Virus record (IMG/VR): IMGVR_UViG_3300043331_001256
Span: 1-33,366 of that record
DNA from: a virus
DNA: 33,366 bases
Reading direction: 5' to 3' (one strand)
The translations under genes and the position numbers were made by a program. Numbering within the stretch: position 1 is the first letter of the stretch; each line of letters begins with the position of its first letter. A model generated the notes under the pieces. That model was given only the letters and a program-made list of their open reading frames with translations. It was not told the origin of the DNA and did not search any database. Positions 1 through 19,575 of the stretch are shown in pieces.

Positions 1-435
1 ATAAAAAGAATTTTTAATTACTCAAAAGCACGGCATAAATTATTATACTATAATAACTCAGAGTATAGAGAAAAATTACTTGCAGATAGTAAACGGCGTG
101 GAAAATTAAAAAGGCACGGAGTATCTTTAGAGCTACAAGAAAAACAATTAAGCCGTCAAAATTATATATGCCCAGGGTGCGAAACTATAATTAGCTTAAA
201 TGCTGAAAATAAAGAGTTCAAGCCCGCTATAGACCACTGCAAGAAAACAAATAAAAATAGATGTGTAATGCATTTTTGTTGTAATAGAAACCTTGGCGCT
301 ATAGAAAAAATAAATCCAAATTGTACAACAATTAAAAACCTATATGAACGAGCAGCCAAACAAGTATTACCTGAATTTGCTAACGCTCGTGATAGCGTAA
401 AGCCTAAGAAAAACCGTAGGAAGCCTAATGTCTAA
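1..435 (+). CDS. Recombination endonuclease VII-like protein (5' end cut by window)
   Basis: The frame is open from base 1, so the N-terminus lies outside the window; 144 residues are visible. The core has the endonuclease VII (Pfam Endonuclease_7) layout: a first Cys pair (C57-x2-C60), a D78-H79-C80 catalytic motif, and a second zinc pair in the string HFCCNRNLG (91-99). Family members use a zinc-stabilised beta-beta-alpha metal nuclease to cut branched DNA, which in phages serves debranching before packaging or acts as a homing-type nuclease. The C-terminal tail is Lys/Arg-rich. Its last 8 bases overlap the SpsF-like start, so the genes are probably co-transcribed. The family is clear; whether it is a resolvase or a homing enzyme is not. 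Confidence 0.8.
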   Translation: MKRIFNYSKARHKLLYYNNSEYREKLLADSKRRGKLKRHGVSLELQEKQLSRQNYICPGCETIISLNAENKEFKPAIDHCKKTNKNRCVMHFCCNRNLGAIEKINPNCTTIKNLYERAAKQVLPEFANARDSVKPKKNRRKPNV

Positions 436-1156
436 CCTGATCCATCTCCCCCCCAGGCCCTCCGGGAAGGCTCCTAGGAAGCCCGGAGAGGGGGGCAGGA
501 GCGAGCCCTCGCTCGGGATCGTGATCCAGGCCCGCATGACCTCGCGACGGTTCCCAGGCAAGTCTATGGCGCTCCTGGCGGGTAAGCCTGTACTACAGCA
601 TGTAATAGAGAGATGTAAGCTAATAAAGTGGAAGAAGCAAATAATATTAGCTACGCCCGATACACCTGAGAGCGAACCAATGTTGCAGCTAGCAGAGCAA
701 CTAGGCGTCAAGCATTTTTGTGGCAGTGAGGATAATGTTTTAGAGAGATACTACGGAGCAGCTACGTTCTATGAGTTAACAAAAATAGTACGTATAACAG
801 CTGATTGTCCATTAATTTCTCCTGAGATATGTACAGAAGTGATAGACTTATTAGAGCTTGGCGAATACGATTACGTGTCTAATGTGTATCCTAAACGTAA
901 CTTCCCTAAAGGTTTAGACTGTGAAGCATTCACTTTTGAATGCTTAGAGGCAGCTTTTATATCTAAACGTGAAGATGAGCACGTAACATCCTGGATGCAA
1001 CTTACACCAGGAGTAAATAGAGCCTTATTAGCTCAAAAAGAAAATCGCTCGCATCAAAACTTATGTGTAGACTACCCCGAGGATATCAAACGCTTAGAGC
1101 GTATAATCAAACGCAAACCTGAGTTAGTGGTGAACAATGACAAAACAATTAAATAA
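428..1156 (+). CDS. SpsF-type cytidylyltransferase (CMP-sugar synthetase family, COG1861)
   Basis: This 242-aa protein belongs to the cytidylyltransferase group (CTP_transf_3) that activates nonulosonic and other surface sugars with CTP. Visible signatures are the nucleotide-binding QARMTSRRFPGK (34-45), GSEDNVLERY (99-108), RITADCPLI (122-130), the FPKGLDCEAF segment (159-168), DEHVT (183-187) and DYPEDI (215-220). Family proteins normally begin just before the QARM motif; here about 28 extra Pro/Gly/Arg-rich residues precede it. ATG 428 has a GGAAG ribosome site four bases upstream. It overlaps endonuclease VII by 8 bases and the methyltransferase by 20, giving an operon. The first ~50 codons are far more GC-rich than the rest, suggesting a mosaic gene. 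Known relatives sit in spore-coat polysaccharide and flagellin glycosylation loci; the actual sugar here is unknown. Confidence 0.85.
   Translation: MSNLIHLPPRPSGKAPRKPGEGGRSEPSLGIVIQARMTSRRFPGKSMALLAGKPVLQHVIERCKLIKWKKQIILATPDTPESEPMLQLAEQLGVKHFCGSEDNVLERYYGAATFYELTKIVRITADCPLISPEICTEVIDLLELGEYDYVSNVYPKRNFPKGLDCEAFTFECLEAAFISKREDEHVTSWMQLTPGVNRALLAQKENRSHQNLCVDYPEDIKRLERIIKRKPELVVNNDKTIK
437..590 (+). other. GC-rich patch at the 5' end of the SpsF-like gene
   Basis: By eye about 70% of these bases are G or C, while flanking DNA is near 40%. Codons such as CTC, ATC, GCC and CGC dominate and give way to AT-ending codons after about 590. The patch encodes both the extra Pro/Arg-rich N-terminus and the conserved QARM motif, so it looks like a recombined segment from a GC-rich source rather than only an inserted spacer. 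An assembly chimera is the alternative. Confidence 0.6.
460..488. repeat. GC-rich inverted repeat inside the SpsF-like gene
   Basis: Arms CTCCGGG (460-466) and CCCGGAG (482-488) pair perfectly, with a CCTAGG palindrome in the loop. It lies inside the GC-rich patch, in the non-conserved N-terminal extension. It could be a trace of a small palindromic element or chance in GC-rich DNA. Confidence 0.5.
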
Positions 1157-1757
1157 ATGGAGAGGAGAGTTTGGAGATGAATACACCAGACGTAATGACG
1201 TAACTGGTCCTACTCTAGAACAAAGAAAAACATTTTGGAGCGGGGTTATGATAGGAACCCTGCCAAAAATTCCAATGAGTATATTGGAAATAGGGGCCAA
1301 TACAGGTGCTAATCTAACAGCTTTACATGAACTATACGGCACCGAAAATAGCATAGAACTCTACGCTGTAGAGCCTAATGACAAGGCTAAAAAAGCTATT
1401 CCCCAAGATTACGTTAAAATAATAGATGAAGACGCATTTTGCATAAACAGATCTGATTACTCCATTGATATGGTATTTACATGTGGTGTCTTAATACATA
1501 TACATCCTGATAATTTATTAGCCGCTATGAAAGAAATATACAGGGTTAGCAGGGAATATATAATATGCGCAGAATACTTCAGCCCTAAATGTGAAGAAAT
1601 ACATTATAGGGGGGAAGATGAATTACTGTGGAAAAACGACTTCGGCAGCATATGGCTGGATAATTTTCCACTGCACTGTGTAATATGCGGGTTCGGGTGG
1701 AAAAGGGTATCCGGTATGGATAACTTAACGTTCCAAGTCTTCCGAAAGGTAAACTGA
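1137..1757 (+). CDS. Class I SAM methyltransferase, pseudaminic acid biosynthesis-associated type
   Basis: A 206-aa protein of about the normal length for the family (TIGR03587-like). The N-terminus has the family's W-x-x-x-FG-x-x-Y-x-x-RN string (WRGEFGDEYTRRN, 8-20). The SAM-binding motif I is LEIGANTGAN (50-59), followed by an acidic motif II at AVEP (77-80) and the post-motif TCGVLIHIHPDNL (115-127). Homologues occur beside pseB/pseC/pseI-type genes in flagellin and capsule glycosylation clusters, where they are thought to methylate the sugar or its precursor; the exact substrate is not established. The start overlaps the SpsF-like gene by 20 bases and the stop overlaps the GNAT start by one, consistent with translational coupling. 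Confidence 0.8.
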   Translation: MTKQLNKWRGEFGDEYTRRNDVTGPTLEQRKTFWSGVMIGTLPKIPMSILEIGANTGANLTALHELYGTENSIELYAVEPNDKAKKAIPQDYVKIIDEDAFCINRSDYSIDMVFTCGVLIHIHPDNLLAAMKEIYRVSREYIICAEYFSPKCEEIHYRGEDELLWKNDFGSIWLDNFPLHCVICGFGWKRVSGMDNLTFQVFRKVN

Positions 1758-2170
1758 TGGCTAAGATGAGCTATACCCCAGTATACTGGACGAAGCCATA
1801 CGATGCACTGTACGAGCTATTAAAAGAACGCAAGGCTAGCTCAAATATTAGTCATAAAGAAATGCCTACCTTTGAACAGCACTGCTCATACGTGGAAAGC
1901 CGTCCACATAAAGAATGGTATTTAATATATGCGGATGGGCAGGTTGCAGGACAAGTATATGTTACGGAAAAAAACGAGATAGGAATACAAATATTCAGTG
2001 CATTTCATCGCAGGGGATACGCCACGGAAGCAGTTAGAAATTTAATTAAAAATCATAAGAAGGGGGAACAATTATTAGCCAATATTAATCCAAAGAACAA
2101 GGCATCTATAGCCTTTTTCAAAAAACTTGGATTCAAGATTGTTCAGCATACATACGGATTGGCTACTTAG
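1757..2170 (+). CDS. GNAT family N-acetyltransferase
   Basis: The 137-aa protein has the GNAT acetyl-CoA loop HRRGYATEAV (about 77-86, pattern R-x-x-G-x-A) and the late motif NPKNKASIAFFKKLGF, a typical beta5/alpha4 signature. The N-terminal third (WYLIYADGQVAGQVYV) forms the beta2-beta3 hairpin. Coming after an SpsF-type enzyme and a pseudaminate-linked methylase, it could play the part of PseH, which N-acetylates an aminosugar nucleotide, but protein or antibiotic substrates are not excluded by sequence alone. It is the last + strand gene; its stop overlaps the stop of the opposing membrane-protein gene by 8 bases. Confidence 0.78.
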   Translation: MAKMSYTPVYWTKPYDALYELLKERKASSNISHKEMPTFEQHCSYVESRPHKEWYLIYADGQVAGQVYVTEKNEIGIQIFSAFHRRGYATEAVRNLIKNHKKGEQLLANINPKNKASIAFFKKLGFKIVQHTYGLAT

Positions 2171-10507: not shown

Positions 10508-11289
10508 TATATCATCATCATTGCAGCGTTGCCAGCACCGAATATACCACTCATAAGAGCATTATACTGTCCCAGCTTAGCTTGATACTGTTGTGAGGCA
10601 GCTTGGTTATACTGATTAGCTATGCTTCCGTAATCGACCCCCTGCAGATTAGGTCTGGGGGTGCTGACTAAATTACTAGTAAGAGAAGCCGGTTGGGTTA
10701 ATCCAAATATGCCTTGTAGAGTTTGCAAAGGTTGATTATACTGGGCCTGTGCCTGTTGGAAAGCTATAGGTTGTGTCTGATTTAAGAAGCTCATCATAGA
10801 TTGGTTTTGTGTATCAGTAAGTGTTCTTATTGCACGAGTATAAGCTTCAGTACCGGGCATAATACCTTGATTACGGAGCTGATTATCCAATTGTTCATTC
10901 TGCTGCGTAAAGAAAGGCTGCATATATGAAGCTTGCCTAGCCATATTTAACTGTGTCTGAGGGCCAGACAATTCTGAAAAATCAGGCGGAGCACTATACA
11001 TATCGAAGCTAGCATTAACTAAATTACCACCGGCGCCTCCCAATCCTATCTGGGACCCTTGTAAGTTAGTTAATATAGCTTGTTGTTGTGGAGATAAATT
11101 AGTGGTAGAAGCATACTGTGTATTACCAAATTGGTCTGTACCAATTGGATTGTACACTAAACTGCCAAATGGCGTAAATTGGTTAGTGTTTTGAGCAGTC
11201 TGTGTACCAGCTAATGTCTGCTGGTTAAGTTTAGCAGCATTAGCTGCTACACTAGAAGACGCTTCTGGTTTAGGTACTGCCGGTCCCAT
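10507..11289 (-). CDS. Conserved podovirus virion protein (TPFG...LSPQQQ type), unknown function
   Basis: The 260-aa protein carries NQFTPFGSLVYN (about 36-47) followed by TTNLSPQQQAIL (about 62-73), a pattern I have seen in many short-tailed phage genomes just after the nozzle gene. The remainder is Gln/Asn/Ala-rich helix with the conserved-looking LRNQGIMPGTEAYTRA segment near 137-152, ending in a Met-rich hydrophobic tail. It is probably a tail-tip or internal virion component, but the precise role is not established. It overlaps the GNAT-like gene by 20 bases. Confidence 0.65.
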   Translation of the reverse strand: MGPAVPKPEASSSVAANAAKLNQQTLAGTQTAQNTNQFTPFGSLVYNPIGTDQFGNTQYASTTNLSPQQQAILTNLQGSQIGLGGAGGNLVNASFDMYSAPPDFSELSGPQTQLNMARQASYMQPFFTQQNEQLDNQLRNQGIMPGTEAYTRAIRTLTDTQNQSMMSFLNQTQPIAFQQAQAQYNQPLQTLQGIFGLTQPASLTSNLVSTPRPNLQGVDYGSIANQYNQAASQQYQAKLGQYNALMSGIFGAGNAAMMMI

Positions 11290-11647
11290 TCAATTTAATC
11301 CACATGGCTGCTTGGTTTCTATGAAAACTAAATACGTGTGCAGCATCATCGATAGCATAGTATTTATCTAATATACAATCCTTGGCAAAACCAAACCTCT
11401 TCAATAAATTAATTTCTTCTATTTGATAGCTATGCGGTTTTGCCCTCAATATATTACATCCGAGGTAATTAAACACATAATTTAGAATAATTTTAATAGA
11501 CCTTTTACTTACACAGCCTTTTCCACATATATGTATTTCTACATTAGACCTATTATACTCAGTAAATAGTACCACGCCAGCTATTTTCTTATCTTTTAGT
11601 ACACCTATAACTGAATACGGATCACCTAAGATCTCCCCTGTTTTCAA
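11270..11647 (-). CDS. GNAT-like acetyltransferase of phage structural regions (start unclear)
   Basis: The visible motif order, VIGVLKDKKIAGVVLFTEY (beta hairpin), then SIKIILNYVFNYLGCNILRAK (helix and beta), then INLLKRFGFAKDC, fits the GNAT-like proteins many podoviruses encode beside tail genes; their substrate is unknown. The listed start is TTG 11647, the only conventional one, but coding sense continues upstream to a stop at 11738-11740, including the family-like run IEFVSGNSKDEVGKLL. That extension has no ATG, GTG or TTG, only ATT 11725 and ATA 11710, and overlaps the end of the nozzle gene at a run of five G. Initiation at a rare codon or a -1 frameshift from the nozzle gene is possible. 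Confidence 0.62.
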   Translation of the reverse strand: MKTGEILGDPYSVIGVLKDKKIAGVVLFTEYNRSNVEIHICGKGCVSKRSIKIILNYVFNYLGCNILRAKPHSYQIEEINLLKRFGFAKDCILDKYYAIDDAAHVFSFHRNQAAMWIKLNGTGST

Positions 11648-11706: not shown

Positions 11707-13998
11707 CTATATCGCACCCCCAAATTCCATAGTAGTCTCAAACCCATTTATTTGGAACAAAGGGACGCCTAGGCCGCTAGTCGTAACACTGAAATCAGGA
11801 TCATTACCAACTAAAGCTATCTCCATCTTAATGGCTAGCGCTACACCTATAGCGCCTACACTTATCCAATCTGTGACAGTAATCGATCCAAGAGCCCACA
11901 CACCCACATCCCATAGACTAATATCCCATACAGCGCCGACTATCTCTGGTGTAGTAACGACGTTACTAAGTGTAGTATTACCAAAATCTACATCCACCCC
12001 AATGGCTGGCGATACCCTACCGTCTGTAACTAACAACGGCCGAAGCATATTCATGTATTTGTTACGACCAGGATCATCAAAATAATTGAAAGCGCATTTT
12101 ACAGCCGCGTTTATGGCCGCACCATTGTCAGAGCTACCAGCATAGCCTAAATTAACATTACCATCTCCATCCCCAAAATAAAAACTATCGTTAAAAGTTT
12201 CTGTACAAACAGCATCCCAACCTGTAAATCTACACCATGCACCAGTTAAATTATTCATCACAAATTGATATGAAGTATTGAACTCTTGCACTGGCACGTT
12301 AAGTACGTATAGACTCTGCTGGGGAAAAGGTAATAATTGCCATCCAAACACACTTTGGCCCATCTGAGCTGCACTAAGCATAGCATTCTGTATTCTATTC
12401 GTCAGAGCTACACTTCTCACACCAGAAGGGTCAAATGGTAGCGATTTAGATATAGGAAGTACACCTTCAAGAGTTATTAAGTTAAGATCAGAGCCTAGCT
12501 GAGAAAAGCACCTTCTGCCTATAGGTTTGGGTTGATTAAATACACCTACCAAGGCCCAGGCATTAGGATTAGCAGGATCGGTACCCTTATATATTATAAG
12601 TTGGCCTTCACTAGATATAAATACAGCTAAGTCATCAGGGCCATTACCACCGTCAACAGTCCACGTCGCCATAGCCATTAAAAATCCGCCGCGAGTAAAG
12701 AAAGCTCCCAAATCAAATGGATTCGGCTCTCCTTGTATGGCATCTGTATCTAGATACCAAGCTTTAGTGGAGTCTTCCTCTACAAACCACACTCGTCTCT
12801 TGTGTACATTTATATGTATAAATGAGCTAGGTATAGCGGAGCCAGTAAACGCTGGATTAGTCCAATCTGAACCATCATATAATAAAGGCTCGTCTGCGCC
12901 ATTTACTATATAAAGATACGTATCCCCATTGGCAGGAGTAAAGTTAACGTGTTGAAATCTAGCGCTGTTTAATCCTGAAACATCTGGGCCTATGGGAGGA
13001 CTAAATGCTTCAGTAAATAACGCTACACCTTTATCTATCTTAACTTCATCTCCATAAGCTGTTATATAGTTGCTGCTCTGGTTAGTATACAATCTACCAA
13101 CCACTAAACCGCCATTACCGGAATTTATAGCCTGCCCCGCACTTATTGACGTAACTGCAGTAGTGACTCCATCTTGATATAAAGTAATAGTAGTACTGCT
13201 TCGTACCACAGCCACATGGTCAAACTCAGCATCAGTTAAGATAGTAGAAGATGTCAGAGTGAAACTAGGAGTCCCATTATCACTAAAAAACGGTGCATTA
13301 TCTGTACCAAATACACCAGTCTGACCAAACCCTAACGCCCATCCATTACTAGCACTAATTCTAGCACTTATGATGCCATTAGACGCCCCCTGACTGCCGT
13401 TACGTCTAATATAAAGCTGTACAGTAAAATCCCCAGTACCAAAATCATAATCATCACTATCTGGAGTAGATATAAAACTACTGCCCGCACTAACCAAAAA
13501 TAAGGAACCTCCACCAAAAGCAAAAGTACTAGTAGTTATCTGGGCTGAGCCATTGGCAGTCCATACATGCCCTGCCTCATCTGTAATAGTAGTAGAGCCT
13601 TCTATGCCATTAAGGTGGAGCATTACTACTGTAGTACTGTCTAATGTTATTATATTCGACCCTTGATCGGATACGTTAAATATATTACTACCGGCTGCAG
13701 CAAACATCTCTTGTGGGGCACCAGGGCTCCTGTACGTCATTAAGGTTTCTATGGGTTCAACAAGGCCATTCACCCAATCGACGTAGCCACCACGTATCTC
13801 CACCCAACCAGGGCGGGGAACTATATTATCCAATACAACTGCAAATTTAGGTTCCATATTAGATAGGGGAGAAATGGCATCCCATCCGCCGGTAGGAGCC
13901 TGTACCAGCTTACTTTCTACATCGTGCCCAAAGTAAGGTTGCTTACCTGCAAATAGAGCACTTTGATTTTTATTGACATACCTATCTAAAGGCGGCAT
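11707..13998 (-). CDS. Tail nozzle protein (P22 gp10-like) with inserted LamG/concanavalin-like domain
   Basis: The 763-aa protein has the nozzle-type N-terminus (LVQAPTGGWDAISPLSNMEP, AVVLDNIVPRPGWVEIRGGY) and a beta-propeller-like body with FQHVNFTPANGDTYLYIVNGA and NNLTGAWCRFTGWDA. Residues about 120-340 form a separate domain with the LamG/concanavalin A look (DYDFGTGDFTVQLYIRR, EFDHVAVVRSS, ITLYQDGV), placed between IFNVSD and SARFQHVNF of the parent fold. Such domains usually bind sugars. It sits below the adaptor in the tail and would guide DNA exit. The preceding adaptor gene ends where this one begins. Confidence 0.78.
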   Translation of the reverse strand: MPPLDRYVNKNQSALFAGKQPYFGHDVESKLVQAPTGGWDAISPLSNMEPKFAVVLDNIVPRPGWVEIRGGYVDWVNGLVEPIETLMTYRSPGAPQEMFAAAGSNIFNVSDQGSNIITLDSTTVVMLHLNGIEGSTTITDEAGHVWTANGSAQITTSTFAFGGGSLFLVSAGSSFISTPDSDDYDFGTGDFTVQLYIRRNGSQGASNGIISARISASNGWALGFGQTGVFGTDNAPFFSDNGTPSFTLTSSTILTDAEFDHVAVVRSSTTITLYQDGVTTAVTSISAGQAINSGNGGLVVGRLYTNQSSNYITAYGDEVKIDKGVALFTEAFSPPIGPDVSGLNSARFQHVNFTPANGDTYLYIVNGADEPLLYDGSDWTNPAFTGSAIPSSFIHINVHKRRVWFVEEDSTKAWYLDTDAIQGEPNPFDLGAFFTRGGFLMAMATWTVDGGNGPDDLAVFISSEGQLIIYKGTDPANPNAWALVGVFNQPKPIGRRCFSQLGSDLNLITLEGVLPISKSLPFDPSGVRSVALTNRIQNAMLSAAQMGQSVFGWQLLPFPQQSLYVLNVPVQEFNTSYQFVMNNLTGAWCRFTGWDAVCTETFNDSFYFGDGDGNVNLGYAGSSDNGAAINAAVKCAFNYFDDPGRNKYMNMLRPLLVTDGRVSPAIGVDVDFGNTTLSNVVTTPEIVGAVWDISLWDVGVWALGSITVTDWISVGAIGVALAIKMEIALVGNDPDFSVTTSGLGVPLFQINGFETTMEFGGAI

Positions 13999-14963
13999 CA
14001 GCTTGTATTAGGTCCGGTTGCTCCAGGGAAGAACCCGTCTTGTACATTAGCAGGTGATATAAGTATGCTTTGAGGCTGCGCACTTAAACTTAACGTGGGG
14101 GCTGCACCATCACGAGAGATTAATCTTTCTACATAATCATCATATTCTTTACGTTTAGAAAGCCAATTAAAGCCTTTTTGCTCCCAAAACCTCCATTTAA
14201 TGCCCATTATAATGGCACGATCATCTAAAAGAGGTATATCAGTGTCATTAGTCCAAGGGAATCCAAAGCTAGTGGTAGAGCCTGCCAGCCTCACCCTATT
14301 TTGAGTTTGATATTCAAACACTAGCTGTAATTCACTAGCTATTTCAGTGGGAGGAGGCCATATTCTATAGTTATTAGGGAACGGGCCTATCTGTCTGAAA
14401 TACCTTCTAGGACCAACCGCAACTATGCCAGATAGGTGCCATTGATCTATCTGTGGTGAAAGCGGGCCTAATAGACTCCACCTATTAGTGCGATCCCACC
14501 ATGTTTGATTAATAAAATGATCAAAGTCACTAGGCTCAGGGTAAGTATCTTGAGCAAATATAAAATCTACACCAGTCTGAGTACCAGTGGCTAGCATAGT
14601 TAACGTTACTTGTGTAGCGCTATCTACCGTGGCTATACGGGCACCATTAGGTATATTATCACCTATGGCAGCAAAATATATACCAGAAAGAGTAGAAGTA
14701 TCAGGTATATTAGTTACAACTGCACTGCCTTCTGTAGTATCTCCAGTAGTTTCTAAGGGAGGATTTATGTTAAGATTGTACTCAAAAGTTAAAGCAGTCC
14801 AATCATGTTTCTTACCTAATTCCTCCAACTCAGATTGAGCAAACCCTAATAGCTGTACAGTAGTTGTATCCGTATTGCCAATAACTGTACTAGCCTGGGG
14901 AAGCCCAAGTTCTTGCTGTGCAGCATTAATTATATTAAGTAAAGTACGATTTTGACCGGGCAT
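13998..14963 (-). CDS. Head-to-tail adaptor (P22 gp4-like / tail tubular A-like)
   Basis: The 321-aa protein shows the adaptor pattern: a helical N-terminus (LLNIINAAQQELGLP), FAQSELEELGKKHDW, PEPSDFDHFINQTWWDR, and the late IRRY-like stretch PRRYFRQIGPFPNNYRIWPPP followed by LVFEYQTQNRV and helices. A Thr/Gly-rich Ig-like loop (about 70-135, TEGSAVVTNIPDTSTL) is inserted, as is frequent in this family. It would form the dodecameric ring beneath the portal that opens the DNA channel and binds the nozzle. TAATG overlaps link it to both neighbours. Confidence 0.78.
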   Translation of the reverse strand: MPGQNRTLLNIINAAQQELGLPQASTVIGNTDTTTVQLLGFAQSELEELGKKHDWTALTFEYNLNINPPLETTGDTTEGSAVVTNIPDTSTLSGIYFAAIGDNIPNGARIATVDSATQVTLTMLATGTQTGVDFIFAQDTYPEPSDFDHFINQTWWDRTNRWSLLGPLSPQIDQWHLSGIVAVGPRRYFRQIGPFPNNYRIWPPPTEIASELQLVFEYQTQNRVRLAGSTTSFGFPWTNDTDIPLLDDRAIIMGIKWRFWEQKGFNWLSKRKEYDDYVERLISRDGAAPTLSLSAQPQSILISPANVQDGFFPGATGPNTS

Positions 14964-15388
14964 TACGAGGAGTTAGCCGACCCTAATACAGCCCATGTAC
15001 TAATGGTAAGTGGGTAAGTAACAAATACTCTACCTGGAACAATTGTAACACCTGTAGTACCGACAACAGATATAGCTGATGCAAAAAATGTAACAGCGCT
15101 ACCCTTATCGTTATTAGATATGAACACACTAATATCTGCAGATGTCAAATTAACTATCTTATACTCAGCGCCAAGAACACCACCGTAACCTATACCATCT
15201 CCTCCTACCTGGGGTAATTTAACAGCACTCGTACCAGTATTCACTACGGTAGTGTACTGAGTACCCGGTATCTTCGCAGCACTGCCTGCAGTACTCCCAC
15301 TAGCAGTAAAAAGCGTAGGAGTATCCCCCATCAAATCTGCGACAAGGGGCGGAGTGCCAAGCCCTACTAAATCTAACTTAGTTGCCAT
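14963..15388 (-). CDS. Small beta-rich structural protein, unknown role
   Basis: The 141-aa protein is rich in Gly, Thr, Val and Ser and low in charge, with predicted beta-strands throughout (YTTVVNTGTSAVKLP, EYKIVNLTSADISVFIS). Lack of enzyme motifs and placement between a DUF115 gene and the adaptor suggest a minor head, decoration or neck component. It starts 11 bases inside the end of the DUF115 gene. Confidence 0.6.
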   Translation of the reverse strand: MATKLDLVGLGTPPLVADLMGDTPTLFTASGSTAGSAAKIPGTQYTTVVNTGTSAVKLPQVGGDGIGYGGVLGAEYKIVNLTSADISVFISNNDKGSAVTFFASAISVVGTTGVTIVPGRVFVTYPLTISTWAVLGSANSS

Positions 15389-16202
15389 GATTACTAACTC
15401 CTTCTACATCAATTTTCTGTCTAGCTAAATCCATTAAGTGTTTAAGTAACCCTTCACCATGGATAGTAACTTGTATTTTATCTGCGTAATATCTAAGCAT
15501 CTTTTGAAAGTCAAACAACTGAGTTAACATATAACCAGATACATAGAATTTTTTACCTTCCTCGCTACCTAAAGCTATTTCAGATATATTACCTAAAGTT
15601 TCTTTAGTTTCATCCTTAAATTCATAAGCATGATGCTTAAAATCTTTACTTAGACAGCTATCAAACCCATATAAGTGAAAATTACTGTACCCCATGCCTA
15701 TCATTAGGCATAATGCCCGAGTACCTACCGTGCAACCTCCACCTATTATCGCTTTATCTTCACCGAAAATTTTATAATCTAATTCCTTACCGCCCCCAGC
15801 ATGCCAGATATAAGCATGCTTCTTATTATCTGCCATCCATCCAAATACTTTAGGCGAGCATTGAGAAGCTATAAGATAGCATGTATTCGGACTATCTTTA
15901 GTAAGATACTCCAACACTATATCATCAGAATCGCATAGAACACAAAAGTAAGGGGTTATGCCGTTTTCTATAAGAAAATCATGGGAAGAGCCACAAGCTA
16001 CTATCAGCTTATCTTCACCTATATCTTTAATAGTATCCTTAAGAGAGGGTCCACCGCCTACAAGAGCTACTTTAATATTTTCTCGCCATATATAGCTGTC
16101 AGTGACCTCAGGTATAACATACCCACTGCTGGCCATTATATTAGCTTTTATTTCTTCCAAGGATTTGGCAGTAGTGGCCTCTACCCCATCGAGTTTTATC
16201 AC
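15378..16202 (-). CDS. DUF115/MptE-like protein (Maf glycosyltransferase-related), copy 2
   Basis: The 274-aa protein has the DUF115 (PF01973) signatures: VGGGPSLKDTI (48-58), CGSSHDFLIENGITP (70-84), CDSDD (90-94), IIGGGCTVGTRALC (152-165), GFDSCL (179-184), HAY (191-193) and IHGEGLL (247-253). This Rossmann-like fold is shared by the pterin kinase MptE and by Maf proteins that attach pseudaminic or legionaminic acid to flagellin. A short N-terminal extension precedes it; no membrane segment is seen. It is a paralogue of the protein at 16981-17862. The catalytic activity cannot be decided from sequence, but sugar transfer is a reasonable guess. Confidence 0.78.
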   Translation of the reverse strand: MIKLDGVEATTAKSLEEIKANIMASSGYVIPEVTDSYIWRENIKVALVGGGPSLKDTIKDIGEDKLIVACGSSHDFLIENGITPYFCVLCDSDDIVLEYLTKDSPNTCYLIASQCSPKVFGWMADNKKHAYIWHAGGGKELDYKIFGEDKAIIGGGCTVGTRALCLMIGMGYSNFHLYGFDSCLSKDFKHHAYEFKDETKETLGNISEIALGSEEGKKFYVSGYMLTQLFDFQKMLRYYADKIQVTIHGEGLLKHLMDLARQKIDVEGVSNHGN

Positions 16203-16984
16203 TTACTAAACTCCTTAGCTACATCACTAAGGGATTGAAAATGCTCTAATTCCTCTGAAGGGGGAGATTTAGGGCTGCCCCTTCCCAAGATCGGCCCTCC
16301 TGATCTAGCTATATCTGCAGTTATGTGCGTACTATTAATCCTCTCAGTCTGCACATCGTAGGAAGGATCGTACATACGATTTATCTGAGGATTACGGGTA
16401 GAGGCTATAAGGCTATCTACTTGCTGTATAAGCTGCGCTATTTGATCATCCTTTATTTTTATGGTCTGTTTGAGTAATTTAACATCATCCTGTAATTTGA
16501 GAAACGCAGACCCATCAGTAGCATTCTGTAAATACATATTGGCCATATTCACCCACTCCTGGGCACCCATACCAATAGTATCTATCGCATTGGCCGATAG
16601 CCTAGCCAATTGCTGTATTGTGTACACACCATGGCCTTTAAGATTATCTGCTACAGCTGGATTATTAGGGAATAATAGGTCTACTAAAGTACCTTCTGGT
16701 ACTTGTGTTTGATTTTGCATAAACCTGTTCCACTGAACAGGAAATCTATCTTTGTCCGCTTCCGCAACTGGACGATCAACAATGTTGAGCCTCTCTCCTG
16801 GCTCATGTATTTTAATAAATACAGCATTTTCAAAAAACCTAGTGCCTGTCTGCTTAGATTTAGCAGGATTCTCTATACTTCTGGTATAGAAAACTACAAC
16901 CTTCTGGTTGTCTTCACTAAATCTAACGGTACCATAATGAGCACCTGCCCAATCAATACCAGTCGGCCTAGCAAAATCACTCAT
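16199..16984 (-). CDS. Conserved coiled-coil protein between the two DUF115 genes, unknown function
   Basis: The 261-aa protein has a compact N-terminal domain (GTRFFENAVFIKIHEPGERL, RPVAEADKDRFPVQWNRF), a helix-hairpin-like middle (QLARLSANAIDTIGMGA, about 123-139) and a coiled coil of about 35 residues (FLKLQDDVKLLKQTIKIKDD onward). The VQWNRFMQ and PEGTLVDLLFP strings recur in proteins near capsid genes of other podoviruses. Four-base overlaps on each side tie it to both DUF115 genes. It might be a structural partner or target of them; that is inference only. Confidence 0.62.
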   Translation of the reverse strand: MSDFARPTGIDWAGAHYGTVRFSEDNQKVVVFYTRSIENPAKSKQTGTRFFENAVFIKIHEPGERLNIVDRPVAEADKDRFPVQWNRFMQNQTQVPEGTLVDLLFPNNPAVADNLKGHGVYTIQQLARLSANAIDTIGMGAQEWVNMANMYLQNATDGSAFLKLQDDVKLLKQTIKIKDDQIAQLIQQVDSLIASTRNPQINRMYDPSYDVQTERINSTHITADIARSGGPILGRGSPKSPPSEELEHFQSLSDVAKEFSK

Positions 16985-17862
16985 GCTGCTTCCTTCGTTG
17001 CACTAGATTTAGTCTCATTAGCCACTATAGCCGCTAAAAGCCCATCTCCGTGTATAGTAGGAGTAAACAATGTGTAATACTTTTTATAATAATCTAAAAA
17101 CTGGTGGGCTTGTGCTAACTGATAGCCTGCGCACTTATATGTTTTAGAGTCACTATCTACGCCAACTTTATTCCCAACTTTAATATCATAAATATGGCCA
17201 ACATCTTCAGCTAAATAGGCGTGCGAATTCCCATCCAAACCTAAGCAACTATCAAATCCAAACATATGGACATTTGTATACCCTAATACCTGTGATATAC
17301 ATATTGACCTCAGTCCTACAGTACAGCCCCCGCCTATAGCCTGGTATCCAGGCTCTATGTCATCCGGCTTATAATCATCACTATGGCAGTGCCACATTAC
17401 TACTTGATAGTCTTTAAAATAATCGAATATTTTAGCGTCGCACCCACTAGCAAGTAAATATTTAACCTCTGTATCCCTTTTCTGAAAATAATTTATACTT
17501 AATGGATCAGGGTCGCATATAGTAGCGTAGGTAGGAGTTATTCCGTTGCCCATCAAAAAATCATTAACACTCCCACAGGCTATAATAGTCTTAAATTTTC
17601 GTAACTCATCTAAATTATCTTTAAGAGAAGGTCCGCCCCCAACTATAGCTATTAATTTATCGTGACCTTTAACCTTGTGAAACTCAGGCAAGCCATGTAG
17701 TCTAGGTAAATTACGTTTAGCATTGATTTTTACATTGGCTAAAGTTTCGTCAAAAGATGTGGCAGTATTGGTTTGAATTTCCTTTAAAGGAACAAAAGGA
17801 AGCTCACCTGAAGATTTATACTTGATAAATTCTGCTTCATTCATTTGGTAAGTATTTATCAT
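16981..17862 (-). CDS. DUF115/MptE-like protein (Maf glycosyltransferase-related), copy 1
   Basis: The 293-aa protein carries the same ordered motifs as its neighbour: VGGGPSLKDNL (74-84), CGSVNDFLMGNGITP (96-110), CDPD (116-119), AIGGGCTVGLRSIC (175-188), GFDSCLG (202-208), HAY (214-216), CAGYQLAQAHQFL and IHGDGLL (270-276). The fold binds a nucleotide sugar or nucleotide in known relatives. The N-terminal ~65 residues are unlike copy 2. ATG 17862 has AGGA seven bases upstream. It is the first gene after a strong stem-loop downstream of the capsid genes, and it is coupled to the coiled-coil gene through a 4-base overlap. Confidence 0.78.
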   Translation of the reverse strand: MINTYQMNEAEFIKYKSSGELPFVPLKEIQTNTATSFDETLANVKINAKRNLPRLHGLPEFHKVKGHDKLIAIVGGGPSLKDNLDELRKFKTIIACGSVNDFLMGNGITPTYATICDPDPLSINYFQKRDTEVKYLLASGCDAKIFDYFKDYQVVMWHCHSDDYKPDDIEPGYQAIGGGCTVGLRSICISQVLGYTNVHMFGFDSCLGLDGNSHAYLAEDVGHIYDIKVGNKVGVDSDSKTYKCAGYQLAQAHQFLDYYKKYYTLFTPTIHGDGLLAAIVANETKSSATKEAA

Positions 17863-17912: not shown

Positions 17913-18521
17913 TTAGACCGATAGAACAGATATATTAACTGCCGGAGTAACGTAAGTAAACATACCGACTTCCGTTACAGTGATATCTCCGCCGCCTGAA
18001 GCGCTAACAGGAACAACTATACCATTGATCCTGCTGGCAGTGGCAGAAGTAGTTAAAAAGCCTGGAATACTGGGAGATATATAAAGAGCAGCGCCTGCAG
18101 CTACAGATACAGAGGCAGTGACATTAACACGAGCGCTATGTGCTACTTTAATTAAAGCCCAGAAACAATCCCCAGGATTAGCTACGCCACCACTTGCGCT
18201 ACCTGCCGTAACACCATTAAGGGGCTGAAATTCAGCAAACCCATAGGTATATACATTAGATGCTATAAGAGTAGACGTAGCATTATTTGCTAAATAGTTC
18301 CTATCCACTACCACATAATTAAATGCGGTAACGGTAGTAGACGCCACAACGAACAGCCATTCACTTCCGTTGTTGCCTTGAACCCTATCCCCTAACTGGT
18401 GAGGGATACCAGGGTACTCTGGCTGAGTAGGGTTATTAGTTACGGTAACGGACGTAACCACAGCGTTAAGGTTAACGCCGGCCTTATTGTCCATTACATA
18501 CCAATTAGTTTCAATTGTCAT
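17913..18521 (-). CDS. Probable capsid decoration protein
   Basis: The 202-aa protein follows the major capsid gene after 22 bases and is beta-rich, low in charge and rich in Val, Thr, Ala, Ser and Gly (VNVTASVSVAAGAALYISP). A W-Y-V-M-D-N start and a GDRVQGNNGSEWLFVVAS segment near 43-60 are seen in proteins in this position in other podoviruses. Decoration or head-stabilising function is inferred from place and composition. The ribosome site AGGAG is nine bases upstream of the start. A long stem-loop follows the stop. Confidence 0.6.
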   Translation of the reverse strand: MTIETNWYVMDNKAGVNLNAVVTSVTVTNNPTQPEYPGIPHQLGDRVQGNNGSEWLFVVASTTVTAFNYVVVDRNYLANNATSTLIASNVYTYGFAEFQPLNGVTAGSASGGVANPGDCFWALIKVAHSARVNVTASVSVAAGAALYISPSIPGFLTTSATASRINGIVVPVSASGGGDITVTEVGMFTYVTPAVNISVLSV

Positions 18522-18543: not shown

Positions 18544-19575
18544 TTAGGTGGTAATAACGCCCTGAAGGAAGCTGTTAGATATAGTCATGTTACCAGCCCA
18601 ACCTAACAGTCTAACCATAGCATCCTGATTGATAGAAAATCTATCGGGATCAAGAGGAACCATGTTGCGCTGAGAATGTGGCCTAAAGTGCAGGTAATTA
18701 GTATTTAAGAAATACATAAACCCTGTAGGCGCACCACCAACAGCACTAGTGCTAGAGCTAGTCTGGAAGGGTATAAGATCGGAGCTAAAGCCCTGGAAGC
18801 CACCGTCTAGCACAACATCGCTATCCATGTACTTAAGCGAGGTATATCCTGCTTCAGCTAAATCAGGAGCACTGGCACTCGGACCAATGCGCTGAATAGC
18901 CTGTAGCGCCTGTAAGTAAAAGCGATACATGCTATTATCAGCAACAATAAGATCAGGCTTATCGCGGCCGCGTAACAGCTGCACATAGAGGGTATCCATG
19001 TAGCCTAGTATGTTAGCAGCATTAGTGGCTGCACCGCCATTAGTAAGCGCACTAAATACTAAGTTACGCCAGAAATTCCAGGTACCACGATCAATACCTC
19101 CTACAGTGCCGGTAGTAGGTGAGGCGGCTACTAGAAGCTGTAACCCACTAATAGAGCCACTGACAGTACCGTCACCGTAAATACCGTTAGAAAGACCATT
19201 CATGAAGGTCATTTCACCGTTTTCTACTCGACCTTCAAGTAAGTCTATAATAGCCTCCTCACCGCTATTCTGTATCTCCTCAAGGCCGGAGATGCTAACC
19301 GCTAACGCGGCTTGGCGGATAGGGAACTCAGCCGCAGTAAAAACCTGCGACGGATTAATATTTATAGTCTGATAGCCACTATACCAAGTGAAAGTAGTAT
19401 TGTTGGCGTAGTTAAGCTCTTGAACAATAGTCCGACCGCCAGAAAAAGTCTTAATTCGGCCGCGACGATTTAACCTAGCTAAAAGAGCGTTGTTACGAGA
19501 AACGTTATCTTGTAAAACGCCAGTCCGGTTGCGCAACGTAGTTGTCACAATCTCGGACAGATTAGGAAATGCCAT
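18544..19575 (-). CDS. Major capsid protein
   Basis: The 343-aa protein is placed after the scaffold as in P22-like phages. It begins with a helical N-arm (NLSEIVTTTLRNRTG), contains a GRTIVQELNYANN beta segment and aromatic WYSGY (about 64-68), a P-domain-like helix region (SGEEAIIDLLEGRVENGEM), a DKPDLIVADNSMYRFYLQAL helix and a late LIPF/FMYFLNTNYLHFRP strand pair, all usual for HK97-fold capsids of this group. Codon use is a little richer in C/G than its neighbours, as expected for a strongly expressed gene. GGAG and AAGGA lie just upstream of the start. Confidence 0.8.
   Translation of the reverse strand: MAFPNLSEIVTTTLRNRTGVLQDNVSRNNALLARLNRRGRIKTFSGGRTIVQELNYANNTTFTWYSGYQTININPSQVFTAAEFPIRQAALAVSISGLEEIQNSGEEAIIDLLEGRVENGEMTFMNGLSNGIYGDGTVSGSISGLQLLVAASPTTGTVGGIDRGTWNFWRNLVFSALTNGGAATNAANILGYMDTLYVQLLRGRDKPDLIVADNSMYRFYLQALQAIQRIGPSASAPDLAEAGYTSLKYMDSDVVLDGGFQGFSSDLIPFQTSSSTSAVGGAPTGFMYFLNTNYLHFRPHSQRNMVPLDPDRFSINQDAMVRLLGWAGNMTISNSFLQGVITT

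Follow-up and report, generated by a model that had tools for sequence, protein, structure and literature searches.

Nonulosonate genes and Maf-like proteins in uncultured tailed phages suggest a sugar coat on the phage capsid

A nonulosonate-type operon and two Maf-like genes

The IMG/VR record IMGVR_UViG_3300043331_001256 is a linear viral fragment of 33,366 bp, which was analyzed over its whole length and is called the window below. Its left end cuts through a plus-strand operon for enzymes resembling those that build nonulosonates, the sialic-acid-like sugars, and two genes close behind its capsid gene code for proteins related to Maf, an enzyme that glycosylates flagellin in the cytoplasm (PMC4065374). 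We propose that the phage lineage represented by this record produces its own pseudaminic-type nonulosonate and places it on its capsid, and we place the probability of this reading at about 0.6.

The first complete gene of the operon (428-1156, + strand) codes for an SpsF-type cytidylyltransferase (PF02348, 70.9 bits; cutoff 22.6), for which we propose the role of CMP-nonulosonate synthetase in the place of PseF. A profile of the phage SpsF proteins matched the cytidylyltransferase of PDB entry 6oew (E 8.8e-38), and the motifs QARMTS-R-FPGK and DCP are kept across ten phages. With 20.4 bits against the PseF equivalog TIGR03584 (cutoff 205.7), the window protein is not PseF by family; judged from its sequence, it may nevertheless carry out the same CMP-activation step.

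The second gene (1137-1757, +) belongs to TIGR03587, a methylase family associated with pseudaminic acid biosynthesis (135.7 bits; cutoff 112.05), and is proposed to methylate a nonulosonate. The third (1757-2170, +) codes for a GNAT acetyltransferase that scores above the cutoffs of both PF13302 (43.5 bits) and PF00583 (38.8 bits) and is proposed to be a PseH-like N-acetyltransferase. Its identity as PseH, though plausible, is weakly supported by its score against the PseH equivalog TIGR03585, which is 15.8 bits (cutoff 93.1). The SpsF and methylase reading frames overlap by 20 bp, and those of the methylase and the GNAT by 1 bp. An earlier reading of this DNA, made from the sequence alone, had described these three genes as one overlapping operon, and the positions and family scores bear that description out.

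The Maf-like genes lie on the minus strand at 15378-16202 (copy B) and 16981-17862 (copy A), and match PF01973 (DUF115) with 70.3 and 71.5 bits, respectively, against a cutoff of 34.6. Copy B is 40-47% identical to syntenic copies in relatives, and copy A is our proposed CMP-nonulosonate:protein transferase. When the profile for TRANSFERASES, built from six phage PF01973 proteins, was run against PDB sequences, the best match was Magnetospirillum Maf (5mu5, E 2.4e-8), with the archaeal pyrophosphokinase HPPK (MptE; 8sd5, E 2.2e-5) behind it. An AlphaFold model of copy A, made with 41 sequences (pLDDT 90.1, pTM 0.88), gave the same ranking: its best fold match was again Maf 5mu5 (Z 20.0, rmsd 2.8, 219 residues aligned), HPPK 8sd5 came second (Z 15.3), and SteA and CMP-using sialyltransferases (mammalian 2wml, ST8SiaIII, Cst-I, and Cst-II) followed at Z 8-10. 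Foldseek agrees with this order. Thiamin pyrophosphokinase and the other folds matched at Z of about 8 or less were set aside as sharing a common fold. The central domain of Maf is known to resemble Cst-II (PMC11339370).

The kinship with Maf that the sequence-only reading had proposed is therefore upheld by sequence and by fold. We use the name Maf-like, rather than Maf, because the central domain alone is covered; against the PseD model NF050051 the two proteins score 28.1 and 17.5 bits, where the cutoff is 670. The conserved gene between them (16199-16984, -; phrog_20268, E 5.3e-12, a family of unknown function) is not itself evidence of glycosylation, because it is a core gene of the family that is present with or without Maf-like genes.

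Relatives carry the upstream pathway

In the comparison of viral contigs G000-G036, in which L numbers designate loci, two 66-kb IMG/VR contigs (G001 and G002) proved syntenic with the window. Their major capsid proteins (MCPs) are 83-84% identical to that of the window, their TerL proteins 59-62%, and their portal proteins 46-47%. The trio of SpsF, methylase, and GNAT genes adjoins the same converging genes in these contigs as in the window, with identities of 52-60% for SpsF, 39-46% for the methylase, 40% for the GNAT, and 40-51% for the MptE-like (PF01973) proteins. Because counterparts of all five genes are found in the same order in both contigs, the five-gene set is beyond chance.

Directly upstream of the trio, G001 and G002 encode PseB-like, short PseC-like, PseI, WbuX/PseA-type, and HisF2/WbuZ-like proteins. 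In G001, the best family of the PseB-like dehydratase is TIGR03589 (363.9 bits; cutoff 407.75) and that of PseI is TIGR03586 (327.8 bits; cutoff 340.25). The WbuX/PseA-type N-acetyl sugar amidotransferase exceeds its cutoff (TIGR03573, 279.8 bits against 203.2), whereas the HisF2/WbuZ-like protein reaches 172.7 and 166.7 bits with HisF2 models and stays below (172.7 against 299.7). The PseC-like protein of both contigs is a short DegT-type aminotransferase whose match to PseC is weak. The sequence-only reading had noted that the full Pse pathway is not visible, which holds for the window and does not hold for its relatives; its corollary, a phage without the pathway that has to draw on intermediates of the host, finds no support in these close relatives.

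The operon is found in ten viral relatives in all, these two and eight further contigs. Four of the eight (G004, G007, G031, and G032) repeat the order PseB-PseC-PseI-WbuX-HisF-SpsF-methylase-GNAT, and the other four (G033, G034, G036, and G035) hold the same operon genes rearranged. The GNAT is kept within the operon of relatives, and nine other viral records have a TIGR03587 methylase with the same operon, scoring at or just under the cutoff; used alone as a query, the window methylase retrieved no relative among viral contigs. The cluster of G035 includes a bona fide PseF (272.4 bits; cutoff 205.7) and no SpsF homolog was seen there, a replacement that supports SpsF as the CMP-activating enzyme elsewhere.

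Two of the upstream enzymes occur in unusually small forms. The PseC-like aminotransferases (L003:5085-5756, L004:5376-6008, L172:8911-9591, and others) have about 205-250 residues, compared with about 380 for full-length LegC-type enzymes. The region of the PLP lysine, SFHxxKxLGIxxGG, is present in all nine of the short proteins aligned, and the C-terminal part is gone. In G033, G034, and G036, the PseI/NeuB proteins are also short, at about 216-220 residues (L192:6910-7566, L193:9976-10623, and L194:8023-8685), and their activity is doubtful because the central part of the NeuB profile is left unmatched.

A scan with WbuX extended the set to other viral contigs in which the cluster is present partly or mostly; in some of them, a distant MCP lies a few kilobases from it. 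WbuX, HisF, and the methylase, mostly together with PseB, PseC, and NeuB, were observed at L218, L221, L224-L227, and L229-L231. Two further contigs, from phages with a distant MCP, have PseI, PseB, and, after them, an SpsF-like gene in the region that separates capsid from tail genes (L187:10001-17541 and L182:9989-17703). By eye, the reading frames after PseI and PseB in these two look like a reductase, an aminotransferase, and acetyltransferases, with the SpsF-like gene next.

A variable slot behind the capsid gene

The MCP gene of the window (18544-19575, -; phrog_9953 major head protein, E 1.5e-110) serves as a landmark, and its product, a possible glycan acceptor, is 53.5% identical to the MCP of Bradyrhizobium phage ppBjS10J-1. 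Between it and the Maf-like gene lies 17913-18521 (-), whose product was modeled with a pLDDT of 83.6. The ten best fold matches of this model are all capsid chains, mostly decoration or cement proteins, with Z values of 9.3-11.4 (Pam3 11.4, XM1 11.0, FCWL1 11.0, T1 10.6, Sf11 10.3, and HFTV1 9.9). On the strength of this predicted fold, we propose the decoration-like protein as the candidate acceptor. An alternative candidate is the small protein of 14963-15388 (-), which is 23% serine plus threonine, adjoins copy B, and is conserved in position; no family matched it above threshold. The sequence-only reading had placed the DUF115 genes in a virion context and linked the genes as a group to nonulosonate chemistry. 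Both suggestions gain support, the former strengthened by the decoration fold of the intervening gene.

About 90 loci with related MCPs keep one gene order: MCP, decoration-like gene, a slot of variable content, the counterpart of the 16199-16984 gene, which marks the right border of the slot, and then the counterpart of the window gene at 13998. Most of these loci have between one and three Maf-like genes in the slot. The slot of G008 and G015 contains a Maf-like gene, a FemAB-type acetyltransferase, NeuB, a PseF-like CMP-transferase, a LegC-type aminotransferase, and NeuC. For G008, the scores are 262.7 bits for NeuB, 109 for the PseF-like protein, and 355 for the LegC-type protein, all below cutoff, and 279.2 for NeuC, above its cutoff of 235.9. 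This second type of nonulosonate cassette (NeuB, CMP-transferase, LegC, and NeuC) stands directly behind the Maf-like gene at L196:9401-15423 and L199:6804-13348.

Among MCP-sampled contigs of at least 50 kb, NeuB occurs in 6/6 with a PF01973 (MptE) protein and in 0/6 without one (Fisher p 0.002), a figure that, like the one for the full sample given below, is weakened by relatedness and fragment length. As an argument, these co-occurrence statistics carry less weight than the physical linkage seen in G008 and G015.

Some slots are filled differently. A TPR-repeat protein occupies those of the MptE-less loci L038:12415-13854, L028:7055-8446, and L062:13470-15041, and a weak GT9 match was found at its end in L038 and L062, the two that were scanned. 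In the nearest cultured relatives, whose hosts are Bradyrhizobium (phage ppBjS10J-1), Stenotrophomonas (phage BUCT555), and Myxococcus (phage Mx9), and in one uncultured record, no slot glycosyltransferase is annotated.

A proposed route from sugar to capsid

Family evidence supports PseB, PseI, WbuX, the methylase, and the fold of the Maf-like proteins, and around these a route can be sketched. PseB would convert UDP-GlcNAc into a 4-keto sugar, from which the compact PseC-like enzyme would form a 4-amino sugar to be N-acetylated by the GNAT. Release of the sugar, the step of PseG, might fall to some other hydrolase or to one of the host. PseI would then condense the sugar with phosphoenolpyruvate (PEP), SpsF would activate it with CMP, WbuX and HisF would convert an N-acetyl to an acetamidino group, and methylation by the TIGR03587 enzyme would follow. 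The result would probably be a CMP-activated, amidinated, and methylated sugar of the pseudaminic type. Finally, the two Maf-like proteins would O-link it in the cytoplasm to serine or threonine residues of the decoration-like protein (or of the 14963-15388 protein) before or during assembly. What we infer within this route is the action of the GNAT as PseH, the PseG step, the sequence of the late steps, the precise sugar, the acceptor, and the function of the coat, for which shielding, adsorption, or stability are candidates.

Beyond this lineage, we lean slightly toward a broader proposal: that several uncultured tailed-phage lineages hold a near-whole nonulosonate pathway, of pseudaminic or legionaminic type, with Maf-type transferases for their own capsids, and that they exchange these cassettes at the slot flanked by the decoration protein and tail genes.

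Weighing the evidence

Several observations weigh against a phage-made capsid sugar. PseB, PseC, and PseI are absent from the window itself. PseB and PseI fall under their equivalog cutoffs in G001, and about 150 residues are missing from the C-terminal end of the PseC-like protein. PseG (TIGR03590) gave no match in G000-G003, so that the search for pse genes beyond the window was rewarded for PseB, PseC, and PseI and not for this enzyme; HisH was not noticed either, with no model search aimed at it. The phage Maf-like proteins, at 293 and 274 residues, comprise the central Maf domain only, compared with about 630-670 residues for three-domain Maf. Across all 31 MCP-sampled records, NeuB accompanies PF01973 in 7/23 and is found in 0/8 without it, which is not significant (p 0.15). 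The remaining 16 of the 23 records with a Maf-like gene beside the MCP are without NeuB, some of them being fragments.

One alternative is that the phage-made sugar is placed on a host structure, such as flagellin or a surface glycan, where it might change a receptor or block superinfection. Flagellin is the known target of Maf enzymes (PMC4065374), and in Acinetobacter, phage genes that modify surface nonulosonates are known to bring about lysogenic conversion (PMC6586298). We nonetheless regard a host target as unlikely. In dozens of phages, the Maf-like genes sit among capsid genes, with the decoration protein on one side and the tail genes on the other, a site of late virion expression; genes for a lipid carrier, flippase, or polymerase were not noticed; and the phage copies are without the flanking domains of Maf. 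An acceptor on the virion is favored over an exported glycan because Maf acts in the cytoplasm, where phage proteins are made, and because of the position of the genes.

It is also conceivable, if rather improbable, that this phage possesses just the final part of the pathway (activation, methylation, and acetylation), draws on host intermediates, and had its operon end at the contig edge by chance. Nothing is visible upstream of position 1, and the many relatives that bear Maf-like genes without NeuB must depend on a host or employ another sugar. Yet the upstream genes are present in every one of the ten relatives that have all or most of the trio. Moreover, position 1 lies inside a truncated reading frame (1-435, +) directly upstream of the SpsF gene. 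Because this frame runs in the operon direction, the operon probably continues past the window edge. Its product resembles endonuclease VII (PF02945, 20.7 bits, below the cutoff of 23.6; phrog_2914, E 2.2e-9), and it is probably an inserted homing-type nuclease gene outside the pathway. G032 offers a parallel for a nuclease gene intervening in the operon: a frame that by eye looks like an HNH or endonuclease VII gene lies within it (L172:11319-11783). The endonuclease VII-like frames at the edge of the operon in one phage and inside it in the other are perhaps mobile. Most likely, the window just ends too early, and we infer that the upstream genes of this very phage lie past the contig edge.

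That the PF01973 proteins are instead HPPK/MptE-type pyrophosphokinases or unrelated virion proteins, with the sugar operon serving another purpose, is highly improbable: archaeal HPPK does belong to PF01973 and ranks second in fold (8sd5, Z 15.3), but Maf is the better match by sequence (E 2.4e-8 against 2.2e-5) and by fold (Z 20.0), sialyltransferases come next in the fold list, nonulosonate genes adjoin the PF01973 gene in G008 and G015, and TPR/GT9-like genes fill other slots.

Relation to known systems

The closest known counterparts of a phage-made, Maf-attached sugar are the bacterial pseudaminic and legionaminic acid pathways with Maf of Aeromonas, Campylobacter, and Magnetospirillum. 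They have the PseB, PseI, WbuX/PseA-type, HisF2-type, and TIGR03587 families in common with the phages; the Maf catalytic domain is shared by sequence and fold, and cytoplasmic transfer from a CMP-sugar is likely a shared mode of action. In contrast to these systems, the phage genes are carried on viral genomes, their transferases are single-domain proteins (274-293 residues) encoded next to capsid and decoration genes, not next to flagellin, the PseC-like enzyme of the phage lineage is of half size, and PseG was not found in G000-G003. With the methylase as query, one scan of bacterial genomes yielded eight loci, and in several of these the methylase lies next to NeuB, SpsF, WbuX, HisF, PseB, or a Maf-sized PF01973 protein; examples are metagenome-assembled Desulfobacteraceae, Kofleriaceae, and Phenylobacterium genomes. 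TIGR03587 thus keeps company with nonulosonate genes both in the phage relatives and in several bacterial loci.

In Campylobacter and Legionella, PtmG amidinates CMP-Leg5Ac7Ac and PtmH then N-methylates the product, yielding acetamidino and N-methyl-acetimidoyl legionaminic acid (PMC3766260). As in the phages, an amidotransferase and a methylase there accompany nonulosonate genes, and we would read the WbuX and methylase steps of the phages as a similar pair. The phages differ in having a HisF2-like protein and PseB/PseI-type enzymes, and TIGR03587 is likened to PtmH by analogy only.

Other systems share single elements. Mycobacteriophages are reported to glycosylate their virions with phage-encoded glycosyltransferases (PMC12691614 and PMC12619734, both citing Freeman et al. 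2023), so that there, as here, phage enzymes are proposed to decorate their own particle. Those glycans are on capsid and tail tube subunits, and the available text of the citing accounts mentions neither a nonulosonate pathway nor a Maf-type enzyme. The sps genes of Bacillus subtilis place legionaminic acid on spores and include an SpsF-type putative cytidylyltransferase needed for sugar on the particle surface (PMC7439481); the surface in that case is a spore, the pathway that of legionaminic acid, and the transferases are others. The TPR and GT9-like slot proteins of L038, L028, and L062 are similar to Caulobacter FlmG, a TPR and GT-B flagellin glycosyltransferase (PMC7591256), in domain arrangement only, and the window has no such TPR protein.

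Searches with tblastn for SpsF, the methylase, Maf-like copy A, and WbuX gave no match among 50,697 isolated phages, and those for PseI and PseB found 3 distant records and 9 records, respectively, all at 40% identity or less. We found no paper on a phage nonulosonate pathway in the open-access literature, a scope outside which most subscription journals fall, and within it no earlier description of a sialic-acid-like sugar that a phage makes and places on its own particle, as the phages studied here probably do. If this reading is correct, phages make and display such sugars, beyond binding or modifying them, in parallel with bacterial flagella, spores, and animal cells. Such a finding would have consequences for phage adsorption, shielding, and persistence in soil and water, and would name the decoration protein as a testable acceptor and the gene slot behind the capsid gene as a place to seek unknown glycan chemistry. 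The single-domain Maf-type enzymes and the half-size PseC-like aminotransferase are offered for study.

Other features of the window

A second GNAT gene (11270-11647), located between structural genes, was rejected as a member of the sugar system. We consider it a core gene of the family because cultured relatives without an annotated slot glycosyltransferase have an acetyltransferase annotated at the corresponding position. The structural protein encoded at 11707-13998 has 763 residues, compared with about 560 in relatives, and an insertion spanning residues ~114-340 matches domains of virion and baseplate protein families.

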